From NCBI GenBank assembly GCA_943788725.1, contig CALSRJ010000003.1, positions 62,001 through 126,000 on the forward strand: a stretch of DNA of 64,000 nucleotides, written 5' to 3'. Of this stretch, positions 6,124 to 62,279 are shown in pieces (within the stretch, counting starts at the first letter, position 1; each line of letters opens with the position of its first letter). Source of the stretch: an uncultured Flavobacteriales bacterium (lineage in GTDB: Bacteria; Bacteroidota; Bacteroidia; Flavobacteriales_G; Salibacteraceae). Below the pieces are notes generated by a model. It was not told the origin of the DNA and searched no databases. It saw only the letters and a list, made by a program, of their open reading frames with translations. The position numbers were made by a program, and so were the translations under genes.

Positions 6124-7179
6124 TTAATCTGTCTTCAATTTTTCAATAAGGGCGGCAAAATAACTGCTTTTTTCAGGATGCAGCAAGCTAAGTTTTTCAT
6201 AGGTCGAAATTGCCTTAGAAATGTTGCCTTGTTGTGCGTAAACTTTAGCAAGGGTCTCGGTTACAATGTCTTCACGGTCTAGTAGACTAGACTTCGCTGC
6301 CTTGGCAGGATTGAAGAATTCGGCTCGCTTTGGAACGATGTCATCCTCTTTTTCAATGAAATTGTCAATGATCGAAGCGGCTTCTTTAAACGATTGAGGC
6401 GTATTGATGACCCTTGAGGGGTCGCTTGGCTCGGCTGCTGAAGGACTGGAAGTTTCAACATCCTTTTGAATGTCAACAACGTCAGACAAGGTGGTCATCC
6501 AGCGCGAAAAACTTTGTTTGGCCGGCACGGCGTCTACTGCATACTCAACTTCTTCTTCAATTGCCTCCGTCACCATAGGCGTGGATTCATTTTTTGCGAG
6601 CTGCGCATCGTCTTTTTCTGGAGCGACTTCCTCAGCAGTCTTGCTCGTTTCAGGAACGTCTTCTTGGATAAGCGTATCGCGCTCATCCAAGGCGTCTAAC
6701 CGATCGATCAAGTCTAAGGCGGCCCCTGCGTTCAATGCCTCTGCTAGGTACTGCAACTCAAAGGGGTCGTCTACTTCTTGGGCATCAACATCGGAGGTTG
6801 ATTCCACTTCCTCTAATGCTTCCATCGGCAGTTGTTGGGTGCCGTCCGCGTCTTCATCAACACGCGAAATCAATTCGATCGGTTCGTCATCTGGTATTTC
6901 AGCCAGCGCCGGATCGGAAGTGTCTATGGTGTCAGTGAGGCGTACTTCTGTCTCTTCTTCAAATAAGAACGAATGCAACTGCCGTCGACTGTTGCTCAGC
7001 AGCGCTGCACGTTGAATCAAGGATTCGTAGCGCACATCACCCTTCGCTTCGTAGGCCTTGGTCAACGCGATGGCCAGGGTGGATGAATAAGGATGTTTTT
7101 GCAGGGTTTCTGACAACAGCGTCAGCTCTGTACTATCCAATCCATCTAATCGGTCGATATTTTCTTCGGTGATCTTCAT
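6124..7179 (-). CDS. Uncharacterised acidic protein with TPR-like ends
   Basis: 351 residues, no signal peptide. The N-terminal 65 residues (LSETLQKHPYSSTLAIALTK) and the last 45 (TETLAKVYAQQGNISKAIST) look like tetratricopeptide helices; the middle is long, acidic and probably disordered. The ATG at 7179 overlaps the lptE stop by one base (TAATG), which points to translational coupling; an upstream in-frame TTG at 7185 is less likely. A gene of this kind between lptE and secG seems to be a Bacteroidota trait, but the function is unknown. A scaffolding role would be only a guess. Confidence 0.75.
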   Translation of the reverse strand: MKITEENIDRLDGLDSTELTLLSETLQKHPYSSTLAIALTKAYEAKGDVRYESLIQRAALLSNSRRQLHSFLFEEETEVRLTDTIDTSDPALAEIPDDEPIELISRVDEDADGTQQLPMEALEEVESTSDVDAQEVDDPFELQYLAEALNAGAALDLIDRLDALDERDTLIQEDVPETSKTAEEVAPEKDDAQLAKNESTPMVTEAIEEEVEYAVDAVPAKQSFSRWMTTLSDVVDIQKDVETSSPSAAEPSDPSRVINTPQSFKEAASIIDNFIEKEDDIVPKRAEFFNPAKAAKSSLLDREDIVTETLAKVYAQQGNISKAISTYEKLSLLHPEKSSYFAALIEKLKTD

Positions 7180-30457: not shown

Positions 30458-31019
30458 TTAGATTTTGATCATTTCCAATCGATGATTTCTTCGTCTTTTT
30501 TGCATTGATTTTCGTTTGATTCTTTTTCTTCTTTCCAAGATCTGATATTGCCTTCCCAGATAGACATCTTCAGGGGTGCAGTTTTGTAGTGATTCGTGGT
30601 ATCTCTTGGTGTTGTAGTATTCGACGAACTCAGCCATGCGATATTCTAACTCCTGAGACAAATAGTAGTGCTCGAGCTTTACCACATTTTTCATGGTTCT
30701 ATGATACCGTTCGATTTTTCCTTGTGTCTGAGGATGGAACGGTCTTCCTCGCACATGTTTTATTTCTTGTTCCCCAAGGAACTTTTTGAGATCATCGCTC
30801 ACATAACAAGGCCCATTGTCAGAGAGTAGGGTTGGCCGTTGTTTTCGGATCAGACCTGCCTTCCGTAACGCCTGGTTGATAGTACGCTCTACATCGTTCG
30901 TTCCCATTGAGTTACACAGCTCCCAGTGGACGATAAACCGGCTGAAGTCATCCAAAACAGTCGATAGGTAATACCATCCCCACCCCTGGATCTTCATGTA
31001 GGTGAAGTCGGTTTGCCAC
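30458..31019 (-). pseudogene. IS3-family transposase orfB, C-terminal part only
   Basis: About 187 residues of a DDE (rve) integrase domain: YLSTVLDDFSRFIVHWEL, LLSDNGPCYVSDDL (second catalytic Asp) and HPQTQGKIERYH (catalytic Glu), with a basic tail. The N-terminal half, which carries the helix-turn-helix, is missing because the element is cut at 31019. The portion is nearly identical to the copy at 40532-40938, with only a few residue changes (for example EQEIKH against EKEIKH). Confidence 0.8.
30613..31019 (-). repeat. 407-bp inverted repeat, left arm
   Basis: This stretch is nearly identical, in inverted orientation, to 40532-40938. The arms are the overlapping parts of two truncated copies of one IS3-family element and enclose about 9.5 kb. 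Confidence 0.8.
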
Positions 31020-31087
31020 TGTAATACTCCCCGATTTTCAGACCAGCGGCTTAGTTAAAATCAGAACTTCTTATTTTATCAAAAGTC

Positions 31088-31354
31088 ATGGGAAGAACAA
31101 GAAGAAAATTTTCGTCTCAGTTCAAGGCAAGAGTTGCTTTGGAAGCTCTTCGCGAACGCGAGACATTGGGAGAGCTTGCTGCTCGATTTGAAGTAAGTCC
31201 GGTAATAATCTCCAGGTGGAAGAAAGAGTTCGTTGAGAACGCTTCAGATGCCTTTGGAGGTAAGAAAGAAGAGAAACCTGAAGTCGATGCAGAGAAGTTG
31301 TACGCTCAAATCGGACAGCTTAAAGTGGAGAGTGACTTCTTAAAAAAAGCTTGA
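31088..31354 (+). CDS. IS3-family transposase OrfA
   Basis: 88 residues. Helix-turn-helix protein of the IS3 type: [40 protein letters not shown] and a C-terminal leucine-zipper-like stretch ([17 protein letters not shown]). It ends in a run of seven A (31342-31348). orfB lies in the +1 (or -2) frame relative to orfA, so the usual -1 shift would not join them; a one-base slip at the A-run would. Confidence 0.9.
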
Positions 31355-31367
31355 AGAAAACCGGGTT

Positions 31368-32249
31368 GTGAGCGAGCGAAAGTCATTGGTCAGCACCAGA
31401 AGCAGGCTGAGTGTCCGAAAGCAGTGTGAGTTGCTGACGGTCAATCGCAGCAACTTGTACTATCACCCGGTTGAAGAGTCTCCAGAGAACTTGAAGATCA
31501 TGCGCATCATGGACGAGCACTCGATCAAGCACCCAGGAGAAGGAGTTATGTCCATGGTCTACATGCTTCGGCGGAAAGGACATGGAGTGAACCATAAACG
31601 GATCCGGCGACTGCTTCGAAAGATGGGCCACAGAACGGTTTATCCGAAAAAGAACCTGAGCAAGCTTGGAGAAGTGAAGTACATCCGCCCTTACTTGTTG
31701 AACAAAGTGAGCTTTACTCACGCCAATCAGGCGTGGAGCGTAGGCATCACCTACATCCCAATGGAAAGGGGCTTTATGTACTGCACAGCCATTATCGACA
31801 TCTATAGCCGAAAGATCGTTGGCTGGGGTGTGTCGAACAGCCTGGAGGCAAAATGGTGCTTAGATGTGTATCAGAGAGCTGTTGAGAAGTATGGTAAGCC
31901 TGAGATCATCAACTCGGATCAGGGAAGTCAGTTTACCTCAAGCCAATGGACTGGAATGATAGAAGACATGGGAGTAAAGGTGTCTATGGACGGAAAAGGA
32001 AGAGCTGTGGACAATCGCTGGATCGAACGCTTCTGGAGAACCCTGAAGTACAAACACATCTATCTGAACCCTCCAAAAGATGGCTTAGAGCTTTATGAAA
32101 ACATCAGATGGTATATCGATTACTACAACAAGGAAAAAGTACATCAAACCTTTGGAGAAGTGCCTGCAGAGAGATACTTCGAATCAAGAATGAAAACAAC
32201 CAATAAATCAATCCAATTATTAACTAAGACTGAGTCTGTTTTGGTCTAG
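31368..32249 (+). CDS. IS3-family transposase OrfB
   Basis: 293 residues from a GTG; the frame is open back to 31344 within the A-run, as expected for an OrfAB fusion. The N-terminal HTH_21 segment (HPGEGVMSMVYMLRRKGHGVNHKRIRRL) precedes the rve domain with catalytic residues in WSVGITYIPMERG (normally WxxDITY; here Gly replaces the first Asp), INSDQGSQFTS and DNRWIERFWRTLKY. The D-to-G change in the first catalytic motif suggests that this copy is inactive. The C-terminal YYNKEKVHQTFGEVPAERYF is typical. Confidence 0.88.
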   Translation: MSERKSLVSTRSRLSVRKQCELLTVNRSNLYYHPVEESPENLKIMRIMDEHSIKHPGEGVMSMVYMLRRKGHGVNHKRIRRLLRKMGHRTVYPKKNLSKLGEVKYIRPYLLNKVSFTHANQAWSVGITYIPMERGFMYCTAIIDIYSRKIVGWGVSNSLEAKWCLDVYQRAVEKYGKPEIINSDQGSQFTSSQWTGMIEDMGVKVSMDGKGRAVDNRWIERFWRTLKYKHIYLNPPKDGLELYENIRWYIDYYNKEKVHQTFGEVPAERYFESRMKTTNKSIQLLTKTESVLV

Positions 32250-32365
32250 AAAATGGGGGAGTATTACAATGAAACAACTCTCAGTGGACCTAAATCCTAG
32301 ATTAACATATCTATGTAATTTGAGAAAGAGCTTCGAATTTAGCAATTTTTGTTAAAATCACCTGA

Positions 32366-35300
32366 CTATTCAAGGTTGATGAGAACATCTTGGTACTTCC
32401 CAAGCATAGCAGAAGTTTCAATCCCAATGTTTCTGAGACTATCAGAAAATCTATCAGCATTTTCTTTGTCATTAAAGTCTCGGTTCACTACTAAGTAGTT
32501 GTTTAAGACGTCAATTTTGATTTGATTGCCTTTAACCACATCAAGCATTCGCTCTAAATCTTCGTTTTTTAGATAGTCTTTGTAGCGACCGATTACTACC
32601 CGATATTCAATTTTCGTTTCGAAATCGGCACCAATTTGTTCAATAGCCTCTTGTCGAGAAATCGTTTTTTCAGGGTATGCATACGGTTCTAATTTATCGC
32701 TCTGTATTTCGTTAGCCAAAGACTGTGAAAAATCTGCTGCTTCGTTGGATTTGGGAGCGCTTTTCAATTCATCGATTACTTGCCTTTCCTCTGCTTGCTT
32801 TTCCTCAAGCTTAGATCCCGGGAAATTAATCACACGGTCCTTCTCATAGTATATAAAATCGAAGTTGAATTCTTTCATCCCGTTAAAATCAACTAAAGTC
32901 TCATCATTTTTAGTTTCCAGGATTTCTCCATAGCCATGTTTGCAGGTCAGCTTGTAAACACCCGCACCAGGGATAGTTAAATTATAGTTTCCAAACTCAT
33001 CTGTCAATGTTCTATAAACTTCACCCTTCTCAGACTCTGCGATGATAATAAGACCTTCTATATTGAAGGATGAAACTCGCGACCTCTTTGATTTTATAAT
33101 GGATATTTTGCCTCGGACGTGATAATTCTTAATAAACGGAACTTCGATCGTTTTATCATCATTTAGCAATATTTCCTGCACGAATCCATAAGTTGGATGC
33201 AAATCGGATACACTAAAAAGCTCATAGAATTTAACATCATAGGTGGCTGCAGGAATCTTGTTGAATTTTACCCTGCCCGAAACGTCTGTGATTAGATCGG
33301 TATTGGGTGAACGCGAATGCTTTTTGTCAATAAAATCTTCTTTTTCAGCCTTTAAGTTAATATTTATGTTGGGCAATACTGGTTCATGGGGTTCTCTATT
33401 TCCATTTCCGTTCAGGTCCTCATAACATAAAATGTTCATTTTGTAAAACTTCTCGTAAGGTTGCTGCCAATAGAAGGACTTTGTAATAGCTGCGTTGATG
33501 TTGATGTTTTTATTACTAATCTCTCCTGAACGGCTTTCATAGGAAGATGCGAACCAGTTAATATAGCTGCTTATTCTTATTCCTTGCGGAAGTGAGGCAA
33601 TGGCATTGGCCCCAATATTCAATTGCTCCGCTTTGGTATTAACATCCAAGCCATAAAAGGCTCTTAAATTTAGGTTTAAATTAATATTCGAAATTTTAAA
33701 GTCTTTATTGTATCCGGCAGATAATCTTATTAGACCTGAGGAGAATGGAATGAGTAAAGTGTCGGAAGTGGATACGGAATAATTGTAGATGAAGAAAGGA
33801 CCTCTAAATATGTCTCCTGATATGTTTAATGCATTATTTCTGGAATAGCGAAGCCCCAAATTATATGCAGGACTCAGCTCGGTTCGCATAGTGTAACTAC
33901 CAGATTGACTTGATTCAAAATCATAAACTGCATTCGTGATCATAGGGTTCGCGAAAACAGAAACTACTTCTAAGGGGTTTAGCCTTTTACTTAGTCCAAA
34001 GGATGATCCATAGTAAAATGTACTTAATCGGGTAGTAACGGATGGCAACACACTCTCCCTAACTATACTGCGATACTGAGGATTGAGACTTATCATCCAG
34101 TTTGAAGCAGTATTGTAGGTTGTTGTCCAAGATGCAAAACGATTTTCTAAATTATTAGAAAAATCACCGCGAGTAAAGTCTTGACGAATGTCAGTAGCGT
34201 TAAAACGGTGATGGAAGGCCTTATCCGTCTTTATTTTCCCGGAGATCACCAATGAACTGCGGTCACCTGAAATAGCAAACCCATTGGTGGGTCTAAAGTT
34301 CCAACGTCCGGACATTGATAGCCTTCCTGCATTAAAGTCTCCTGCGGCATAATAGCCAAGCCGATTAATATTTCTTGGCGCAACTGCACCGGGCGAGGTT
34401 ATTTCTCCTAAATAATATGTGGCGCCAACACCCAATCTTAATAAACGAGATACTGGGGTTTTAACGCCTGCTTCGAATGCACTTACATTGAAATTATTAT
34501 TTCCAAAGGTTGTGGAATATCCTAAGTTAAAGGGTAAAGCAAATGAATTGATGCTTAGCGAAGTGCTGGACACATATGTGTCGGGTAAGTAACTTTTACC
34601 CGCCTCCGTGGCGAATACGATTTTTTTCCCTTGGTAATTATATCTCAAACCCTGATATCTCAAAGGAATATGCTTATTGTAAAAATTACTGCTCAAGTCA
34701 ACACGGCTCAATCCCCTCCTAATTCCAAGTCTATACTGGTAAATACTTCGAGTCGTTCCTTCTCCAAGTGATGCAATTCCAACCTGACCTAAGTTAAAAC
34801 TTCCTAAATAATAATTAACATCCGTTTTGGCATTTAATTGAAGCTTGCCACCTGCAGCAGACATGTACCGCTCTCCACCCGGATTGCCAATGTTAAATAC
34901 TCCTGCAGTGATGAATAAAGGTGAGAGCTCTTTATAGGTTTCGTCTATTAAACTTGATTGATAGTTTTCAATTATAAAGCTGCCTTCTATTTGGCGGCCT
35001 GATCCGTATATAGAATATTTTAAGCTTTCTTGAGGTAAATTTTCACTTCGCAATGAATCCGTCAATACTGTCCGCTTAAGTTTAATAAGAATCACAGTGT
35101 CTGATTTTGCTTTTAAGTTGAAAGAAGTTGAAAAACTTGTGACAGGTGCAATTAACTTATAGTCCAAGGGATAGTTAAATGAGAGATTGATATTTTCACT
35201 CACATTACCTTGATTAATGATTCGTATTCCTGTCTCACCAGATAACTCTATCGGATTGATAAGAATTGAATTATTTTGATTTATCACACTCAAATCAAAA

Positions 35301-35848
35301 CGGGCTGCTTTTTGGATGTATGCATAAGCCTTTATTTTTTTATCCTGGTCAAGACTCACAGTGGCGCCTATTATGTAAGATTTTCCCCCTTCCATATTTT
35401 TAGGAGCAATCAATCGCATTGGAATGTAAATAGTTTCACCGGGATTAGCCATAAACTCCAGTTGCTGGGAGACTAAATGAATCCAACCGTTTGGTAGTTG
35501 CAAATTGATCTTGCCTGAAACGAGCTTATTCGTTTTATTTACAAAAACCAAGCTATTAAAAACAGAAGTTTGGTCGTCAATATCTTGTTTATAAATCGAA
35601 AATTTCAACTCTTCCCCAATGCTATCGGATGAGTTGATTGAATCTTGAGAATTTAGACTATTCGATTGATCAAAAAATGGGTCAACAGATTTAGCAATGC
35701 TATCTATAAATGACAAACTGTCTGTTGCAAGATCATTCAACAAGCTGTCGCTTAATTCAAGAACATTGTCGTTAATACCTTGCGAAAAGGCAGGAAAAAA
35801 CACAGCCGGATATAAAATGAACAAGGCTATGATATGACCGAGACGCAT
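32366..35848 (-). CDS. Large usher-like outer-membrane protein with SPOR-like end
   Basis: 1160 residues. Signal peptide (to about residue 22, FPAFSQ). Residues about 50-290 look like Ig-like domains (NGWIHLVSQQLEFMANPGET). Residues about 300-790 are dense in alternating beta-strands ending in aromatic residues and look like a large barrel. About 800-900: SdrD-B-like domain (CYEDLNGNGNREPHEPVLPN). About 920-1010: carboxypeptidase-regulatory-like domain (TLTDEFGNYNLTIPG). The last about 90 residues resemble SPOR (YRVVIGRYKDYLKNED). Together with two secreted subunits and a PapD-like chaperone next door, the layout resembles a fimbrial usher, but homology to PapC is not demonstrated. Confidence 0.75.
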   Translation of the reverse strand: MRLGHIIALFILYPAVFFPAFSQGINDNVLELSDSLLNDLATDSLSFIDSIAKSVDPFFDQSNSLNSQDSINSSDSIGEELKFSIYKQDIDDQTSVFNSLVFVNKTNKLVSGKINLQLPNGWIHLVSQQLEFMANPGETIYIPMRLIAPKNMEGGKSYIIGATVSLDQDKKIKAYAYIQKAARFDLSVINQNNSILINPIELSGETGIRIINQGNVSENINLSFNYPLDYKLIAPVTSFSTSFNLKAKSDTVILIKLKRTVLTDSLRSENLPQESLKYSIYGSGRQIEGSFIIENYQSSLIDETYKELSPLFITAGVFNIGNPGGERYMSAAGGKLQLNAKTDVNYYLGSFNLGQVGIASLGEGTTRSIYQYRLGIRRGLSRVDLSSNFYNKHIPLRYQGLRYNYQGKKIVFATEAGKSYLPDTYVSSTSLSINSFALPFNLGYSTTFGNNNFNVSAFEAGVKTPVSRLLRLGVGATYYLGEITSPGAVAPRNINRLGYYAAGDFNAGRLSMSGRWNFRPTNGFAISGDRSSLVISGKIKTDKAFHHRFNATDIRQDFTRGDFSNNLENRFASWTTTYNTASNWMISLNPQYRSIVRESVLPSVTTRLSTFYYGSSFGLSKRLNPLEVVSVFANPMITNAVYDFESSQSGSYTMRTELSPAYNLGLRYSRNNALNISGDIFRGPFFIYNYSVSTSDTLLIPFSSGLIRLSAGYNKDFKISNINLNLNLRAFYGLDVNTKAEQLNIGANAIASLPQGIRISSYINWFASSYESRSGEISNKNININAAITKSFYWQQPYEKFYKMNILCYEDLNGNGNREPHEPVLPNININLKAEKEDFIDKKHSRSPNTDLITDVSGRVKFNKIPAATYDVKFYELFSVSDLHPTYGFVQEILLNDDKTIEVPFIKNYHVRGKISIIKSKRSRVSSFNIEGLIIIAESEKGEVYRTLTDEFGNYNLTIPGAGVYKLTCKHGYGEILETKNDETLVDFNGMKEFNFDFIYYEKDRVINFPGSKLEEKQAEERQVIDELKSAPKSNEAADFSQSLANEIQSDKLEPYAYPEKTISRQEAIEQIGADFETKIEYRVVIGRYKDYLKNEDLERMLDVVKGNQIKIDVLNNYLVVNRDFNDKENADRFSDSLRNIGIETSAMLGKYQDVLINLE

Positions 35849-35862
35849 CCTTCAATAACTAT

Positions 35863-36555
35863 TTAATATGACACGTCTGTGCATGTTGTGCATTCTGGAA
35901 CTAAAGTGAAGGAGACGGTTACATAGTATGAGTCAGGTACATATCCTCCCGCTGCATCTATGAAAGGTACAGCTAGAGTACAACCACCAATCCCCGGAGC
36001 TACTCCCATAAAGTAATCGATGCTTATTTGGTCAGTTGTCCAAAATCGATCAGTAATCACATTAATTCCATTATCTTCTTTAAAGATTGCCCCCCCTAAA
36101 GTTGGTATTTGACCCAAGGCCACTTTGGTATTAGAAATCGTCACTGCAGAGGCTGCGAATCCCGATGATATGTTTGCTAATGCTTCAAGGGCGCAAAGTG
36201 GGAGTGAATTTGAAGGACTCAAACCTGTGAATTGTGCATCATCGGTGTCAAAATATATTGAATAACCCGTAATGGTCGAACCACCTACAGGGTCTAGAGA
36301 AGTCCCCCCCTCTGAATTACAATTACAAACCGATATACCCATAACTGTACTATTGGTTTTTGATATTCCATTCTTATAGTCATCTATGGTCTGAAAATTG
36401 AATTCAACACTTGAACCAGCGAGCACACTGATTCTGGCACTATTAAAATCAATAATACCAACCGGTGCAGGATCATTACATGGAGAGCATTGACCAAAAG
36501 CCTGGTTTATCGAAAAAAGTGCAAAAAGAAAAATAGAGTGACGGAGACAAATCAT
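35863..36555 (-). CDS. Secreted subunit-like protein 2 of the usher-like cluster
   Basis: 230 residues with a signal peptide ending near NQAFGQ. After a Cys-containing start (CSPCNDPAP) comes ISVLAGSSVEFNFQTIDDYK, shared with its neighbour (GGNIEFVFNTIDDYRDG), so the two are paralogues. It ends in an alternating strand YYVTVSFTLVPE followed by CTTC. The pattern of a conserved early strand and a strong last strand resembles pilus or coat subunits. It starts 5 bp after a perfect hairpin and stands 14 bp before the usher-like gene. It could be a minor or tip subunit. Confidence 0.65.
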   Translation of the reverse strand: MICLRHSIFLFALFSINQAFGQCSPCNDPAPVGIIDFNSARISVLAGSSVEFNFQTIDDYKNGISKTNSTVMGISVCNCNSEGGTSLDPVGGSTITGYSIYFDTDDAQFTGLSPSNSLPLCALEALANISSGFAASAVTISNTKVALGQIPTLGGAIFKEDNGINVITDRFWTTDQISIDYFMGVAPGIGGCTLAVPFIDAAGGYVPDSYYVTVSFTLVPECTTCTDVSY

Positions 36556-36560
36556 GGTTA

Positions 36561-36598
36561 AAATAAAGGAGAATCAATTTATTGATTCTCCTTTATTT
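36561..36598 (-). promoter_or_regulatory. Perfect 18-bp hairpin between two subunit genes
   Basis: AAATAAAGGAGAATCAAT (36561-36578) is exactly mirrored at 36581-36598 with only TT between. On the minus strand an A/T-rich stem lies directly before the ATG of subunit 2, and the stem includes an AAGGAG-like ribosome-binding sequence. It may attenuate transcription, protect the upstream mRNA or control translation so that subunit 1 exceeds downstream products. Confidence 0.7.
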
Positions 36599-36606
36599 CG
36601 AAATGT

Positions 36607-37272
36607 TTAGTTATCTGAAATCTGTAATTCGAAAAGTACGTTTACTACGTATCTATCCGGATCAACCCCTGTTTGCTCTATTAATGAAACAGCATTCATG
36701 TCATCTTCAGCGGTACCGCATCTCCATTGGATAGTAAAATCATTATCGGCCTCGTCTCCTGCATTGGAGGCTCCAGTGTTATCCCAACCAAGTAATTCTT
36801 GAGGATATAGGTCCAAATCAGCCACAGTCGCACCCAGTGCCGTTGGGGCGCTAATGATTTCACCTGTTCCTAGAGTGTGGGCGCCATTTGCAACAATCTG
36901 TAAACCAACATTATCCAAGGCTAGAGTATTCGGAGTTGTTCCATCATCTACTCCAATAAAGGTTGCATTTTCAGCTCCGTACATCAAATCCCATTCAGTG
37001 GATGATGAAATTGTAAAAGATGACTGATAAAACCCGGCAGACGTGGCATCATTAGCAGCTCCAGCGGGATCACCTGAAAGACCATCACGGTAATCATCTA
37101 TGGTGTTAAATACAAACTCAATGTTACCACCATCGTAGATAGACATTCTGAGTACTTGATTGAGATTCACCGCCACTGGAATTACATTCCGATCTCGCAC
37201 CGCTTGAGCTTGGGAGCTAACTCCTGCAAACATCAAGGCTGCTGTTAAGCTTGTTAAAGTAATTTTTTTCAT
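36607..37272 (-). CDS. Secreted subunit-like protein 1 of the usher-like cluster
   Basis: 221 residues with a signal peptide (MKKITLTSLTAALMFAGV, cleavage near SSQAQA). It shares the EFVFNTIDDYRDG motif with the next gene and ends in the alternating strand DRYVVNVLFELQISDN, the kind of terminal strand that chaperone-assembled subunits use. It is the first gene after the divergent promoter region with the chaperone gene. Position before a strong hairpin suggests a highly expressed major subunit. No T9SS sorting domain is seen. Function is inferred from context. Confidence 0.65.
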   Translation of the reverse strand: MKKITLTSLTAALMFAGVSSQAQAVRDRNVIPVAVNLNQVLRMSIYDGGNIEFVFNTIDDYRDGLSGDPAGAANDATSAGFYQSSFTISSSTEWDLMYGAENATFIGVDDGTTPNTLALDNVGLQIVANGAHTLGTGEIISAPTALGATVADLDLYPQELLGWDNTGASNAGDEADNDFTIQWRCGTAEDDMNAVSLIEQTGVDPDRYVVNVLFELQISDN

Positions 37273-37323
37273 GGTTAATTGTTTATTGATTGACGAATGT
37301 AGTTTTATTCAGAGTATATTCAC

Positions 37324-38097
37324 ATGCAAAAAAAAACTTTTTCTATGAAGTATTTATTTCTGTTTTTCTTTTTTTCTCAATCGCTTTTTGCGCAAGATTT
37401 TGAGGTGAGTCCCGTATTGATAGAGGCTAATGCTAGCCAAGGGCGTTTTGTAAGAGATGTTATGATTTTTAACCATACCGACTCCCCGAAAATTTTTAAT
37501 GTCAAGGAATATGATTTTATCATAGAGGAGGGAGGGAAAAAGATGCCAGCCGAGTTTGGTTCGACATCCCACACATTAAAAGGTGAAATGAATATTTCAC
37601 CTTCAACGATTTTATTACAACCAAATGAAAAAGGTTATTTTACGCTCTCTATAGAGCCTGTAATCGCATCTAAGATGAAGTGGGCTAAGCTCTCAGTAAT
37701 TGCTGAAAACGAAGTTTCGGTCCTTGAAGAAGTTACTTCGTTGGGGGCGGGCGTCAAAATAAAACCTGCAATCTCGATAATGGTTTATATGCACAGTGAT
37801 GAGGCTCAGCCTGATGCCGAAATTTTCACCCCTGAGAAGACCGATTTAGGATATGACGTTAGGATTGCAAACACCGGTGACGCAAGAGTAAAGGCAAAGG
37901 TTACTTTTCTTCTAACAAATATTTTGACCGGGGAGGAAATGGAATTTGATGAAGAGGTGGTTAATTTATTGCCTGGGGTAGAGAAGACTCTTTCTATTGT
38001 GATTCCTGAACACGACTATGCTAAAGCGATGTTAAGCGTTTTGATGGATTACAGCCCAAATGCTGATTTAAAAGGGGTACAAACCATCTTGAATTAA
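37324..38097 (+). CDS. PapD-like periplasmic chaperone
   Basis: 257 residues. A signal peptide ends near QSLFAQ (a second Met, at 37345, is an alternative start). Two Ig-like domains follow. Domain 1 has DFEVSPVLIEANASQGRFV, VMIFNHTDSPKIFNV and ISPSTILLQPNEKGYFTLSI, the order of strands found in fimbrial chaperones. Domain 2 has VRIANTGDARVKAKVTFLLT and LLPGVEKTLSIVIP. It is divergent from the subunit genes (51-bp gap) and overlaps the MORN gene by one base. A PapD-like chaperone beside an usher-like protein is unusual for Bacteroidota. Confidence 0.7.
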   Translation: MQKKTFSMKYLFLFFFFSQSLFAQDFEVSPVLIEANASQGRFVRDVMIFNHTDSPKIFNVKEYDFIIEEGGKKMPAEFGSTSHTLKGEMNISPSTILLQPNEKGYFTLSIEPVIASKMKWAKLSVIAENEVSVLEEVTSLGAGVKIKPAISIMVYMHSDEAQPDAEIFTPEKTDLGYDVRIANTGDARVKAKVTFLLTNILTGEEMEFDEEVVNLLPGVEKTLSIVIPEHDYAKAMLSVLMDYSPNADLKGVQTILN

Positions 38098-39041
38098 TGT
38101 CTGTTTTATCCATTTATTTTGGGATATTGTTTTCCTCAATTATTCCAATGGAACCCGACACCATAGCTGTAAATTATTCGGGGGACACTATAGTGAAGGA
38201 AGTTTATTTGGCTAAAATAAATTCAAGAGGAGACACTATCCGATCTGGCTTTTATCATTCGTTTTACAGAAATGGATTCCCTGACCAAAGGGGGTGTTAC
38301 AGAAAAAATAAACTCTCGGGGGAATGGATACTATCGGATCAAAATGGGTTTGTTGAGCAGAAGCTGACCTATAAAAAGGGTAAACAAAACGGTCCTTTTG
38401 AAAGGTTTTATACGCAATCGCAAAAACCGAGGTATACGGGTAAATACCGTAAAAATTTACTTCACGGCAAAGTAATCTTCTATTATGAAACTGGCGAATT
38501 GATGGAGAAAAGCAGCTATAAACGGAATGTAAATGAAGGAATTACGATAAACTATTTTAAATCTGGAAAAATAAAGGAGGTCTCAAGGTTTAAAACTGGA
38601 TTAAGAGACGGAATGCGCTCTTTCTATTCAGAATCTGGTTTTCTATTGAAAAACGAAAAGTATCATCTTGGTTTGCTCGAAGGTCAATCATTTATATACC
38701 ATATTGACTCAAAAATTATTTCTCAAAAATTGAGTTATCGAAATAATCTTCTTCATGGCCCTCACTTGACCTATTATCCGAGCGGTCAAATCAAATCCGA
38801 GTGCAATTACATAGAGAATCAAAGAATAGGGAGTTATGCTTCGTATCATGAAAATGGCGAATTGATGGAAAAGGGAAACTACATCAACGGAAAGAAGCAT
38901 GGATACTGGGAGGTTTTTGATAATAAGGGCATCCTTGTTAGCTCTGCATTTTTGAATGATGGAAAGATTTCAGGGGATCTGAAAATCTATAATAGTCAGG
39001 GTGAATTAATGAATAAAATCGAATATGAAAATATTGAGTAA
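38097..39041 (+). CDS. MORN/YwqK-repeat protein
   Basis: 314 residues. A hydrophobic start (SVLSIYFGILFSSIIPM) is probably a signal sequence. At least eight MORN_2-type repeats follow, each of the form YYETGELMEKSSYKRNVNEG or YHENGELMEKGNYINGKKHG. Such YwqK-like proteins are often described as antitoxins, but here the gene is translationally coupled (TAATG) to the chaperone gene, so a structural or envelope role within the cluster is more likely. It overlaps the next gene by 17 bp. Confidence 0.75.
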   Translation: MSVLSIYFGILFSSIIPMEPDTIAVNYSGDTIVKEVYLAKINSRGDTIRSGFYHSFYRNGFPDQRGCYRKNKLSGEWILSDQNGFVEQKLTYKKGKQNGPFERFYTQSQKPRYTGKYRKNLLHGKVIFYYETGELMEKSSYKRNVNEGITINYFKSGKIKEVSRFKTGLRDGMRSFYSESGFLLKNEKYHLGLLEGQSFIYHIDSKIISQKLSYRNNLLHGPHLTYYPSGQIKSECNYIENQRIGSYASYHENGELMEKGNYINGKKHGYWEVFDNKGILVSSAFLNDGKISGDLKIYNSQGELMNKIEYENIE

Positions 39042-39360
39042 CAAGAAATCTAAATTGATCAAAGCTTCGCTTTACATCAGTTTCACCCTTGTTAACTTGA
39101 GTCATATCGGTTGTAAAGATTCAGTTGCTGAATGTTCAGAAACTTATGTCCTTGTTAGAACGAATATCTCGAATGATTGTACTTTTATAATAATCTCCGA
39201 CAAGTTGATTTATGAGCCTGCTAATATTTCTCAGTTTAATTTCACTGCATCACTCGGAGATTCTACTCAAGTTCAAGCCGATTTTAGGATATCTGATCAG
39301 TTGTTCCCGGAATGTTTAGGAGACTACAGGGTGGAGTTGTTTTGCCTAGAACCAATGTGA
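39025..39360 (+). CDS. Small lipoprotein of the usher-like cluster
   Basis: 111 residues. A basic N-region (KKSKLIKA) and hydrophobic run end in a lipobox LSHIGC. The mature part is short and rich in Cys and Thr/Asn (ECSETYVLVRTNISNDCTF). Its start overlaps the MORN gene by 17 bp, so they are co-transcribed. No family is recognised. It ends about 20 bp before an IS remnant. Confidence 0.65.
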   Translation: MKILSNKKSKLIKASLYISFTLVNLSHIGCKDSVAECSETYVLVRTNISNDCTFIIISDKLIYEPANISQFNFTASLGDSTQVQADFRISDQLFPECLGDYRVELFCLEPM

Positions 39361-39381
39361 ATTGTTTTGAGATGATACAAT

Positions 39382-39765: not shown

Positions 39766-40113
39766 ATGGGAGCAAAGAAGAAGTCCGAGTCCATTATCAA
39801 GGACATTAAAAGAAGAACACGCAGAGCCTTTTCATCCGAAGAGAAGATCGCCATTGTGCTGGAAGGTCTTCGTGGTGAGGAGAGCATTGCTGCGATCTGT
39901 CGAAGAGAAGGTATTGCTCAAGCGTTGTACTACCGGTGGAGTAAGACCTTCTTAGAGGCTGGTAAACAACGCTTGTCGGGAGATACCTTGCGGGAAGCCA
40001 ACACCGAGGAGGTCGATAGTCTCCGCAAAGAGAATGCAGCCCTGAAGGAGGTTGTAGCAGAGTTGACCTTGCGAGAGCGGGTGCTAAAAAAAAGCTTGAC
40101 TGGACTCGAATAA
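39766..40113 (+). CDS. IS3-family transposase OrfA
   Basis: 115 residues. Basic start (GAKKKSESIIKDIKRRTRR), then the helix-turn-helix FSSEEKIAIVLEGLRGEES and AAICRREGIAQALYYRWSKTF, and a zipper-like end (LRKENAALKEVVAELTLRER). Its 3' end holds a run of eight A (40086-40093), and orfB lies in the -1 frame, so the usual programmed -1 frameshift is possible here. Confidence 0.88.
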   Translation: MGAKKKSESIIKDIKRRTRRAFSSEEKIAIVLEGLRGEESIAAICRREGIAQALYYRWSKTFLEAGKQRLSGDTLREANTEEVDSLRKENAALKEVVAELTLRERVLKKSLTGLE

Positions 40114-40127
40114 ACTTTCACAGGTAT

Positions 40128-40961
40128 ATGCGATACAGTCCGGAAGAGAAGATGGAGATCATCCGTATGGTGGATGGTTCAGAACTGGGGGTCAAGCGTA
40201 CCCTTCAGGAGCTTGGCATAGCCAGGAGCACTTTCTATGGGTGGTATGAAAAGTACCTCAATGAAGAGCCTCTGGAAAAGCAGACCAGGGCGAGTTACTG
40301 GAACCGTATTCCTGATGAGTACAAAGCCAAGGTGATTGAGACTGCTCTTGAACTGACCCATCTCTCGCCTCGCGAGATCGCTACCCACATGACCGATCAC
40401 TCGGGTCACTTCATCTCAGAGAGCAGCGTTTATCGCATCCTTAAAAGAGCGGGGCTGATCACCTCTCCAGCACATATTCTACTGGCAGCTGAGAAGGAGT
40501 TCAGCAATAAGACCACCCGGGTACATCAGATGTGGCAAACCGACTTCACCTACATGAAGATCCAGGGGTGGGGATGGTATTACCTATCGACTGTTTTGGA
40601 TGACTTCAGCCGGTTTATCGTCCACTGGGAGCTGTGTAACTCAATGGGAACGAACGATGTAGAGCGTACTATCAACCAGGCGTTACGGAAGGCAGGTCTG
40701 ATCCGAAAACAACGGCCAACCCTACTCTCTGACAATGGGCCTTGTTATGTGAGCGATGATCTCAAAAAGTTCCTTGGGGAAAAAGAAATAAAACATGTGC
40801 GAGGAAGACCGTTCCATCCTCAAACACAAGGTAAAATCGAACGGTATCATAGAACCATGAAAAATGTGGTAAAGCTCGAGCACTACTATTTGCCTCAGGA
40901 GTTAGAGTATCGTATGGCTGAGTTCGTCGAATACTACACCACCAGCAGCTGCATGCACTAG
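40128..40961 (+). pseudogene. IS3-family transposase OrfB, C-terminally truncated
   Basis: About 270 native residues. Helix-turn-helix region ELGIARSTFYGWYEKYL, HTH_21-like segment, and rve domain with catalytic residues in WQTDFTYMKIQGW, LLSDNGPCYVSDD and TQGKIERYH. All three acidic catalytic residues are present, but the sequence leaves the element after EYY (40938) and reads a few foreign codons (TTSSCMH) before a stop. The lost tail is seen in copy 1. Confidence 0.82.
40532..40938 (+). repeat. 407-bp inverted repeat, right arm
   Basis: Inverted and nearly identical to 30613-31019. Recombination between the arms would invert the 9.5-kb segment that holds the usher-like cluster. Confidence 0.8.
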
Positions 40962-41393
40962 CACCCGATCTCCTTTGTGTAAATTGATCATGTGACACGC
41001 TGAAAACCATGCGGTGCAATATTGTGTTGCCAAAGCGGTCGCTTCTTCTCTGTTTGTTCCATGAGCTAATTGCACAACTCCGCGGTAATCTGCAACAGCA
41101 TATTCAGCGTATCCGCCAAATTGGGTGAATCCTAAAACTAGATCACCCACTTCATAACGCTTAGCGTTTTCTCCCACAGCTTCAACTTCACCCACTACTT
41201 CGTATCCTAAAACGCATGGAAGAGGTGGACGGTCATTGTAAAGGCCCTTCCGCGCCATAATGTCAGCATAGTTCAATCCGAAATGACTCACCTTGATGAG
41301 CACTTGATTGGCGCTAGGACTTGGTTTGGGTATATCTTGAAATTCGAATGCTTCAGCAGCAGACCCTTCTTTGGTTACAACAATGGCTTTCAT
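40939..41393 (-). pseudogene. NAD(P)H:quinone oxidoreductase (zinc-free MDR family), N-terminal half
   Basis: About 152 residues of a protein usually near 330. Visible: MKAIVVTKEGSAAEAFEF, the GroES-like fold with VSHFGLNYADIMARKGLY and LGYEVVGEVEAVG, and the start of the cofactor domain DRVLVHAAAGGV, which normally continues GxxAxQ. The gene is broken exactly there by IS copy 2 and the remaining half is not in the window. It was a medium-chain reductase of quinones or enones; it is now inactive. Confidence 0.85.
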
Positions 41394-61472: not shown

Positions 61473-62279
61473 TTATTCCAAGACCTCATAATCAATGATT
61501 ACGTCGTTAATGGGCCAATCGCCTGTATCTCTCTTCTCATTGGAAATCGCCTCTACTACACCCATTCCTTCTACTACTTCTCCAAAGACTGTGTGTACCC
61601 CGTCTAAATGAGGCGAGCCCCCCATGTTTTTGTATACCTCCCGCGCTGATGCGGGTATTTGAATGTTGTACTCCTCCTCTACAGCGTCTAAGCCATCCTC
61701 ACTGAGCGGTTTACCGATCACGATGTAGAAGCTGTATTGTGCTGATTTTTGCTTTGGGTTGTCCTTGTAGCTCATCGCCATGGCAATGGCACCTCTCTTA
61801 TGGATCAGCTCGGGCGTCGTTTCATTGGGGATGTAATAGGCACCTGCTTCTTCTCTTTTTTCAAGGGTCTGGTAATGATCGGAATTTCCTCCCTGGATCA
61901 TGAATTCAGGAACAACCCGGTAGAAGATGGTGTGGTGGTAGAGCTCTTCATTGACATTATAGAGAAAGTTGGCCCGGTGGATCGGCGTTTGTTCGTAGAG
62001 GCGAATCTTGATATCCCCCAGTCGCGTCTTGAGTAACACAAGCGTTTCTGGATGAGCAGCACCATAGTCTTCGAAGAATTGCCTGACCTTTCCTTCTCGT
62101 GGACGTGGCGCATTCTTCTTTGAGGGGATCTCTTGCTCTACCACGTGTTTCGGTTCTTCCGCTTTGGGTTCAATTGTTTCCTTCTTTTCAGGCGGTGGTC
62201 CAGCACAAGCAAGCAGGAGGGCAGCAGATAAAATCGTTAAAATGATGTATCTACCTTTCGATGTAACGGGGATGTTCAT
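61473..62279 (-). CDS. Cyclophilin-type peptidylprolyl isomerase lipoprotein
   Basis: 268 residues from the ATG at 62279. A lipoprotein signal ends LLLAC; a charged linker with Pro and Lys follows. The cyclophilin domain covers about residues 95-268: TRLGDIKIRLYEQTPIHRAN, FYRVVPEFMIQGGNS (the Arg-Phe region of the active site), ISNEKRDTGDWPINDV. VFGEVVEGMGVVEAI is typical. It catalyses proline cis-trans isomerisation in the periplasm. The insertion around DAVEEEYNIQIPASAREVYK is usual for Bacteroidota members. Confidence 0.9.
   Translation of the reverse strand: MNIPVTSKGRYIILTILSAALLLACAGPPPEKKETIEPKAEEPKHVVEQEIPSKKNAPRPREGKVRQFFEDYGAAHPETLVLLKTRLGDIKIRLYEQTPIHRANFLYNVNEELYHHTIFYRVVPEFMIQGGNSDHYQTLEKREEAGAYYIPNETTPELIHKRGAIAMAMSYKDNPKQKSAQYSFYIVIGKPLSEDGLDAVEEEYNIQIPASAREVYKNMGGSPHLDGVHTVFGEVVEGMGVVEAISNEKRDTGDWPINDVIIDYEVLE

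Follow-up and report, generated by a model that had tools for sequence, protein, structure and literature searches.

A 64,000-nucleotide stretch of DNA from an uncultured Flavobacteriales bacterium of the Salibacteraceae (contig CALSRJ010000003.1, forward-strand positions 62,001 to 126,000; hereafter the window) contains a compact cluster of six genes, whose products include a PapD-like chaperone, two small secreted proteins termed sub1 and sub2, and a large protein predicted to form an outer-membrane barrel. Here we describe this cluster and its relatives across the Bacteroidota, and weigh the case for regarding it as a machinery for surface fibre assembly. Open reading frame (ORF) calling in the window confirmed all six genes at the positions, and in the two divergent transcripts, that a preliminary description of this DNA had given them (Table 1); both putative promoters must sit in the short stretch that separates the transcripts. 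Several other elements of that description were borne out as well. The Ig-like and SdrD-like domains of the large protein were recovered with Pfam as a weak NEW3 Ig domain and an SdrD_B-like match (E=2.3e-7), accompanied by a CarboxypepD_reg-like domain; sub1 and sub2 are indeed paralogous (22–23% identity); and MORN_2 repeats are present in the protein encoded directly behind the chaperone. The chaperone, sub1, sub2, and the smallest protein of the cluster have no Pfam match, even at E=5. Signal peptides were judged by eye. The smallest protein, previously labelled a lipoprotein, is a small secreted protein, but its lipobox is poor, which weakens the label, and relatives of it were found in the same genus only.

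Table 1. Features of the gene cluster, in window coordinates
Feature	Position	Strand	Basis
Whole cassette	32269..39381	none	96–98% alignment with two sister genomes ends here (blastn against L031, L032)
Usher-like protein, 1160 aa	32366..35848	-	ORF, Pfam, AlphaFold2 model, Foldseek and VIA, family alignment
sub1, small secreted subunit, 230 aa, proposed tip pilin	35863..36555	-	sub2 paralogue
sub2, small secreted subunit, 221 aa, with donor-strand-like N-terminal extension, proposed shaft pilin	36607..37272	-	Profile link to the TLP-1/TLP-2 family
Intergenic stretch, 51 bp, between divergent transcripts	37273..37323	none	Sequence
Two-domain PapD-like periplasmic chaperone, 257 aa	37324..38097	+	Family profile against E. 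coli K-12 chaperones, PapD_N in relatives, fold of relative L144
MORN_2-repeat protein, 314 aa, directly behind chaperone	38097..39041	+	Pfam MORN_2, 6.8e-19
Small secreted protein, possible lipoprotein, 111 aa	39025..39360	+	ORF

Gene order across the Bacteroidota

A search for the same gene order elsewhere in the phylum, suggested by the preliminary description, found it widely conserved across families. The arrangement (MORN)–chaperone, divergent from sub2–sub1–barrel, recurs at 70–98% identity within the genus; outside the genus, identity falls to approximately 20–50%, and in other families to approximately 20–30%. Of 60 related genomes, 19 yielded a match to the large protein and 26 a match to the chaperone. 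Scanning genome contigs for the sub2 family yielded 65 loci from Flavobacteriales, Bacteroidales, and unclassified Bacteroidetes, and the locus counts that follow rest on the 63 loci with a called sub2, which were fetched independently. The barrel gene lies downstream of sub2 in 57 of the 63 loci, with a further subunit gene between the two in 54. A chaperone is present in 41 loci and is encoded divergently upstream in 33; the MORN-repeat protein is its constant partner, directly behind it in 33/33 divergent loci. We know of no MORN-repeat component in known chaperone-usher systems. The conservation of this gene order is far beyond chance.

Two further layouts are evident. In type B, the chaperone, sub2, sub1, and barrel genes all point in the same direction. 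The third layout (type C and beyond) features tandem runs of near-identical 181-residue subunits (L140, L142, L144), as well as proteins of approximately 340 residues which match the subunit profile and finish with the C-terminal motif of the subunits, much as a two-domain tip adhesin would be expected to look. In L140, L142, L144, and also L151, several such near-identical 181-residue pilin paralogues lie in tandem upstream of the chaperone gene. Across 395 genomes drawn from the whole phylum, the chaperone occurs in 53, and it is present in every one of the 11 that genuinely match the barrel profile; two additional barrel-profile hits were discounted, as they span the SPOR-like tail only. 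In the more distant lineages that show this third layout, the chaperone usually adjoins one to four small secreted proteins and a protein of 890–1490 residues, with L165 as an exception. Viral contigs and plasmids returned zero relatives. In one same-genus relative (L037, genome G005), a frame change and a stop codon at approximately 7034–7082 break the barrel gene in two, and the system there may be dead.

The chaperone, the subunits, and the barrel protein

The window chaperone, taken as a single sequence, matches nothing in Pfam (E=5), NCBIfam, or the PDB; only family profiles found matches. The profile of 73 family members aligns with that of seven E. coli K-12 chaperones at E=5.8e-8 over 212 columns covering both domains, and at E=3.1e-5 over 196 of 204 columns once signal peptides are removed. 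In this mature-part comparison, the controls gave 0.028 for a reversed profile and 0.34 or worse for shuffled columns; further control comparisons gave 0.005 and 0.046. Comparison by hhalign was weak with small alignments and became clear only with the 73 sequences. PapD_N is matched by 12 of the 73 members (best E=8.2e-8), the window member showing no match at E=5, and a whole-genome scan placed a PapD_N match (G055:C66:1314-1658, E=3.4e-4, model positions 16–124 of 126) inside an ORF that had been found independently via the window chaperone. These profile relationships establish remote homology of the family to FimC and PapD over both domains.

Structural comparison leads in the same direction. 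The fold model is that of the relative L144, in which the in-frame neighbouring subunit and chaperone genes were read through their stop codons (alignment A7), purely as a reading device for the fold. The chaperone half of this model is confident, and its Foldseek matches run from WxLIP, in first place, to CsuC, CfaA, YadV, Caf1M, and FimC. Superposition with VIA-align gives Z 14.1 against FimC (root-mean-square deviation, rmsd, 3.2 over 186 residues), and Z 13.3 against CsuC, for which Foldseek reports E=1.6e-10. At the level of this predicted model, a two-domain PapD fold is shown for the family. The strand that matches G1 alternates in character: columns 144, 150, 152, and 154 are hydrophobic in 88–100% of the 73 sequences, and column 146 in 75%. 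An arginine, a candidate anchor for the subunit carboxylate, is frequent in this strand (47/73 sequences) but is replaced by alanine in the window chaperone. The two-domain PapD-like chaperone of the preliminary description thus survives as a very diverged member of the PapD superfamily, on the strength of the family profile and the fold of L144. Weak hits to Cep192/ASH and to sperm-axoneme Ig domains were dismissed as generic PapD-like Ig folds. Separately, the family is intermediate in both sequence and fold between PapD and the Gram-positive WxLIP, hinting that the two share ancestry.

Like the chaperone, the window subunits as single sequences match nothing in Pfam, NCBIfam, or the PDB. 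In sub2, a near-constant 25 residues separate the apparent end of the signal peptide from a GGNIEF-type motif, compared to 10–12 residues in the sub1 counterparts of most families; sub2 is the longer of the two in 28 of 39 measurable pairs. The extra residues read A-V-x-D-R-x-V-I-P-V-A-V-x-L-N-Q, in which I29, V31, V33, and L35 are hydrophobic in 12/12 sequences (alignment A4) and the residues between them are small or polar. This strictly conserved, alternating pattern resembles that seen in the donor strands of pilins. Alternation also marks the C-terminal strand, with a wider-family motif of roughly PxGxYtxxVtYt, and several distant subunits end in a penultimate tyrosine, a feature familiar from pilins.

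Relatives of these subunits are present in PDB entries of many chains. The subunit family profile matches PDB entries 9IKK ("TLP-2") and 9IKJ ("TLP-1"), of 16 chains each, at E between 1e-14 and 1e-13, and type B sub2 matches them over its whole length at E=6e-46. Profile comparison in turn ties the window sub2 group to type B (E=2.3e-12, or 2.6e-7 with signal peptides removed) and to type C (E=7.9e-12, or 8.7e-7 with signal peptides removed). By this chain of profile matches, a homologue of the proposed shaft subunit is already solved in 16-chain entries, which are presumably filaments and in which the neighbour's residues NVTVTMDLQPVL would be a candidate filler of the subunit groove. The evidence for pilins is strong but indirect. 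In the L144 model, the subunit part is predicted with confidence (predicted local distance difference test score, pLDDT, 82–96), and chaperones fill the hit list of the joined model. Compared by hhalign with ten pilins of E. coli K-12, the subunits show no FimA-type homology. One weak full-length match (E=6e-4) is to PDB chain 10ss_a, which looks like a pilin of this type. That chain comes from an entry of 14 chains that bears the name "Ferrous iron transporter B"; its sequence is that of a fimbrial subunit, and the name seems to be mistaken. DUF4402, a family whose function is unknown, is matched by 8 of the 63 subunits, an indication that its members are pilins. At L171, L172, and further loci, DUF4402 proteins adjoin PapD-like chaperones and large proteins.

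The AlphaFold2 model of the 1160-residue protein (pLDDT 69.9; predicted template modelling score, pTM, 0.48) comprises two Ig-like domains at approximately 80–300, approximately 24 long strands at 311–792 with one uncertain stretch, two beta domains at 801–1002, a disordered linker, and a tail at approximately 1062–1158 whose beta-alpha-beta-beta-alpha-beta order is that of SPOR. In Pfam, SPOR leaves a trace in the window protein and a strong match in relatives. By Foldseek, the outer-membrane barrels that best match this model are FimD and PapC, with approximately 800 columns spanned, and the VIA alignment with PapC covers both the barrel and the C-terminal domains. The outer-membrane barrel is a prediction from a model, not a case of homology. 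We describe the protein as one that would work like an usher and keep it out of the usher family, because sequence homology was not found and no plug is visible.

A putative fibre assembly pathway and its alternatives

Taken together, these observations make it very probable that the products of this locus assemble fibres by a chaperone/usher-type system, one that belongs to Bacteroidota and has diverged very far from those already known. We infer chaperone–subunit contact, strand exchange, and export through the barrel, together with the roles of sub1, the Ig domains, and the SPOR-like tail, as parts of the following pathway. All components would reach the periplasm via Sec, where the PapD-like chaperone would donate its amphipathic strand G1 to the pilin subunits, each of them missing one strand of an Ig-like fold, and deliver them to the barrel protein, whose Ig domains may take up the chaperone–subunit complex. 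At the barrel, the N-terminal extension of the next sub2 would displace the chaperone strand by donor-strand exchange. The resulting fibre, a chain of sub2 copies with sub1 as the cap at its tip, would exit through the large outer-membrane barrel, while the C-terminal domains could grip its growing base and the SPOR-like tail could anchor the pore to peptidoglycan.

Several results weigh against this proposal, and some of them favour other explanations of the same genes. The joined chaperone–subunit model of L144 reaches a pTM of 0.54, about the value that the chaperone alone would be expected to give; the placement of subunit and chaperone relative to each other is not fixed by it, and the complex was not predicted. 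In the window's genus, the rule that the tip lacks an extension fails, because sub1 there has its own, different 25-residue N-terminus with cysteines. WxLIP of Enterococcus faecium outscores FimC as the match of the chaperone family in both structure and sequence (VIA-align Z 16.3, rmsd 6.0, against the L144 chaperone; E=6e-10 against the family), and 32 of the 73 members match WxLIP_PGBD, above cut-off in L140 (5542-6342). Combined with the SPOR-like tail of the barrel protein, this similarity speaks for a surface complex of the WxL/WxLIP kind, in which the PapD-like protein would be a stable partner that ties small beta-sandwich proteins to peptidoglycan and the barrel would be an anchor or pore. 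Set against it are the subunits themselves, which match the 16-chain TLP entries, carry the donor-strand-like extension, and show zero WxL domains among 63 sequences at E up to 0.05; moreover, WxL proteins are Gram-positive, and their clusters come without a large co-encoded barrel. We therefore consider such a complex quite unlikely.

The barrel protein invites a different objection. PF00577 is absent from the window and has no match above cut-off in 60 relatives, and comparison of the usher profile with 22, then 54, sequences aligned only locally (E=7.5e-4 over 96 columns). VIA ranks MtrB (18.2) and FhuA (approximately 16) above FimD (13.4) and PapC (13.3), and the barrel match is therefore generic. 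The model also lacks a folded plug, a low-confidence stretch of 45 residues (approximately 406–452) lying near the corresponding place. The preliminary description had held that its proposal would be refuted if the large protein were predicted to be no barrel with plug; the barrel is predicted and the plug was not seen. Its suggested profile searches divided similarly, with PapD homology recovered through PapD_N in relatives and the family profile, and usher homology not found. An ordinary porin-like or MtrB-like barrel, with subunits that self-polymerise outside in the manner of TasA and a PapD-like protein that blocks early polymerisation, would fit these features. It fits less well with a barrel gene that is co-transcribed and directly behind the subunits in nearly all of the loci, or with FimD and PapC as Foldseek's best barrels, and it is in our estimation very unlikely. 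The usual fibres and secretion systems of the phylum, a type V (FimA/Mfa-type) pilus or a cargo cluster of the type IX secretion system (T9SS), are suggested only by the phylum and by the presence of small secreted paralogues. FimA/Mfa and Por_Secre_tail are unmatched in all six proteins (Pfam and NCBIfam, E up to 5), the subunits are unlike lipoproteins, and a PapD-like chaperone and a co-encoded barrel, neither of which to our knowledge type V pili use, would be foreign to such a system; this explanation is extremely improbable.

The chaperone/usher-type reading thus retains the central claim of the preliminary description, an "independent or very diverged" system, with support from chaperone homology, gene order, a predicted barrel, and a 16-chain subunit homologue. 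Between the two adjectives, the chaperone sides with "very diverged" as a PapD member, and the barrel, devoid of PapC/FimD homology, could be either. The earlier caution that neither PapC nor pilin homology had been shown remains valid for each window protein on its own. With somewhat less than even confidence, we propose further that these loci represent a Bacteroidota branch of the chaperone-usher principle, widespread and unrecognised, in which a chaperone of PapD ancestry and DUF4402-type pilins work with a separately recruited, plugless pore tied down by SPOR. Conserved over the Flavobacteriales, the Bacteroidales, and other lineages of the phylum, a cassette of chaperone, pilin, and barrel genes would add a class of pilus to numerous environmental as well as animal-associated bacteria, assign a function to DUF4402-type proteins, provide a genetic explanation of the TLP-1/TLP-2 structures, and serve as a test of gating in an usher that has no visible plug.

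Mobility of the cassette and relation to known systems

The 7.1-kb cassette is 97.6% identical in L031 and 95.8% in L032, and the blastn alignment stops exactly at its ends. In comparison, the genes beside it in L031 share only 65–68% identity with their counterparts here, which sit on a different contig. Because of this disparity between cassette and flanks in L031, the sequence comparison indicates that the cassette moved recently between species by horizontal transfer. Integrase-core transposase genes lie on both sides (30458-32249 and 39766-40961), and parts of two of them form an inverted repeat of 413 bp with 98% identity (30607-31019 and 40532-40944). Beyond them, at 40902-41393, a cut-off alcohol-dehydrogenase-like gene (163 residues, ADH_N domain) overlaps the transposase gene at its end and was probably broken by insertion.

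Type V pili and the T9SS are the systems ascribed to Bacteroidota. Chaperone-usher pili have been described in Proteobacteria, Cyanobacteria, and Deinococcus-Thermus (PMC4654587). Our literature search found no account of chaperone-usher systems in Bacteroidota, of DUF4402 together with a chaperone, or of the TLP entries, and earlier publication is possible; the TLP entries show that close relatives of the subunits have already been studied by others. The cluster type is widespread in Bacteroidota and, in the literature searched, has not been reported for the phylum.

Among the closest known systems, WxLIP of Gram-positive WxL clusters has the fold of the chaperone and resembles it weakly in sequence across the two domains, but it is peptidoglycan-bound and operates without an outer-membrane barrel or a fibre. 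TLP-1 and TLP-2 are homologous to sub2, over the whole length for type B and via profiles for the window group; the window sub2 itself is only remotely related, with no single-sequence match. Type 1 and P pili (FimC/FimD/FimA, PapD/PapC) resemble the system described here in profile-level chaperone homology across both domains and, in outline, in the predicted architecture of the barrel protein, and differ from it in that neither pilin homology by profile nor usher homology by sequence connects them. Also among the closest known systems are the archaic (sigma) chaperone-usher pili, exemplified by Csu of Acinetobacter (chaperone CsuC, pilin CsuA/B, usher CsuD). Common to both are a compact cluster, a two-domain PapD-fold chaperone, small paralogous subunits with a donor-strand-like extension, and a large outer-membrane barrel (here predicted) with N-terminal and two C-terminal domains. 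Unlike Csu, the Bacteroidota system comes from another phylum and has a barrel without detectable usher homology or a visible plug, Ig-like N-terminal domains, SdrD_B/CarboxypepD domains at the C-terminal side, a SPOR-like tail, and a MORN protein.

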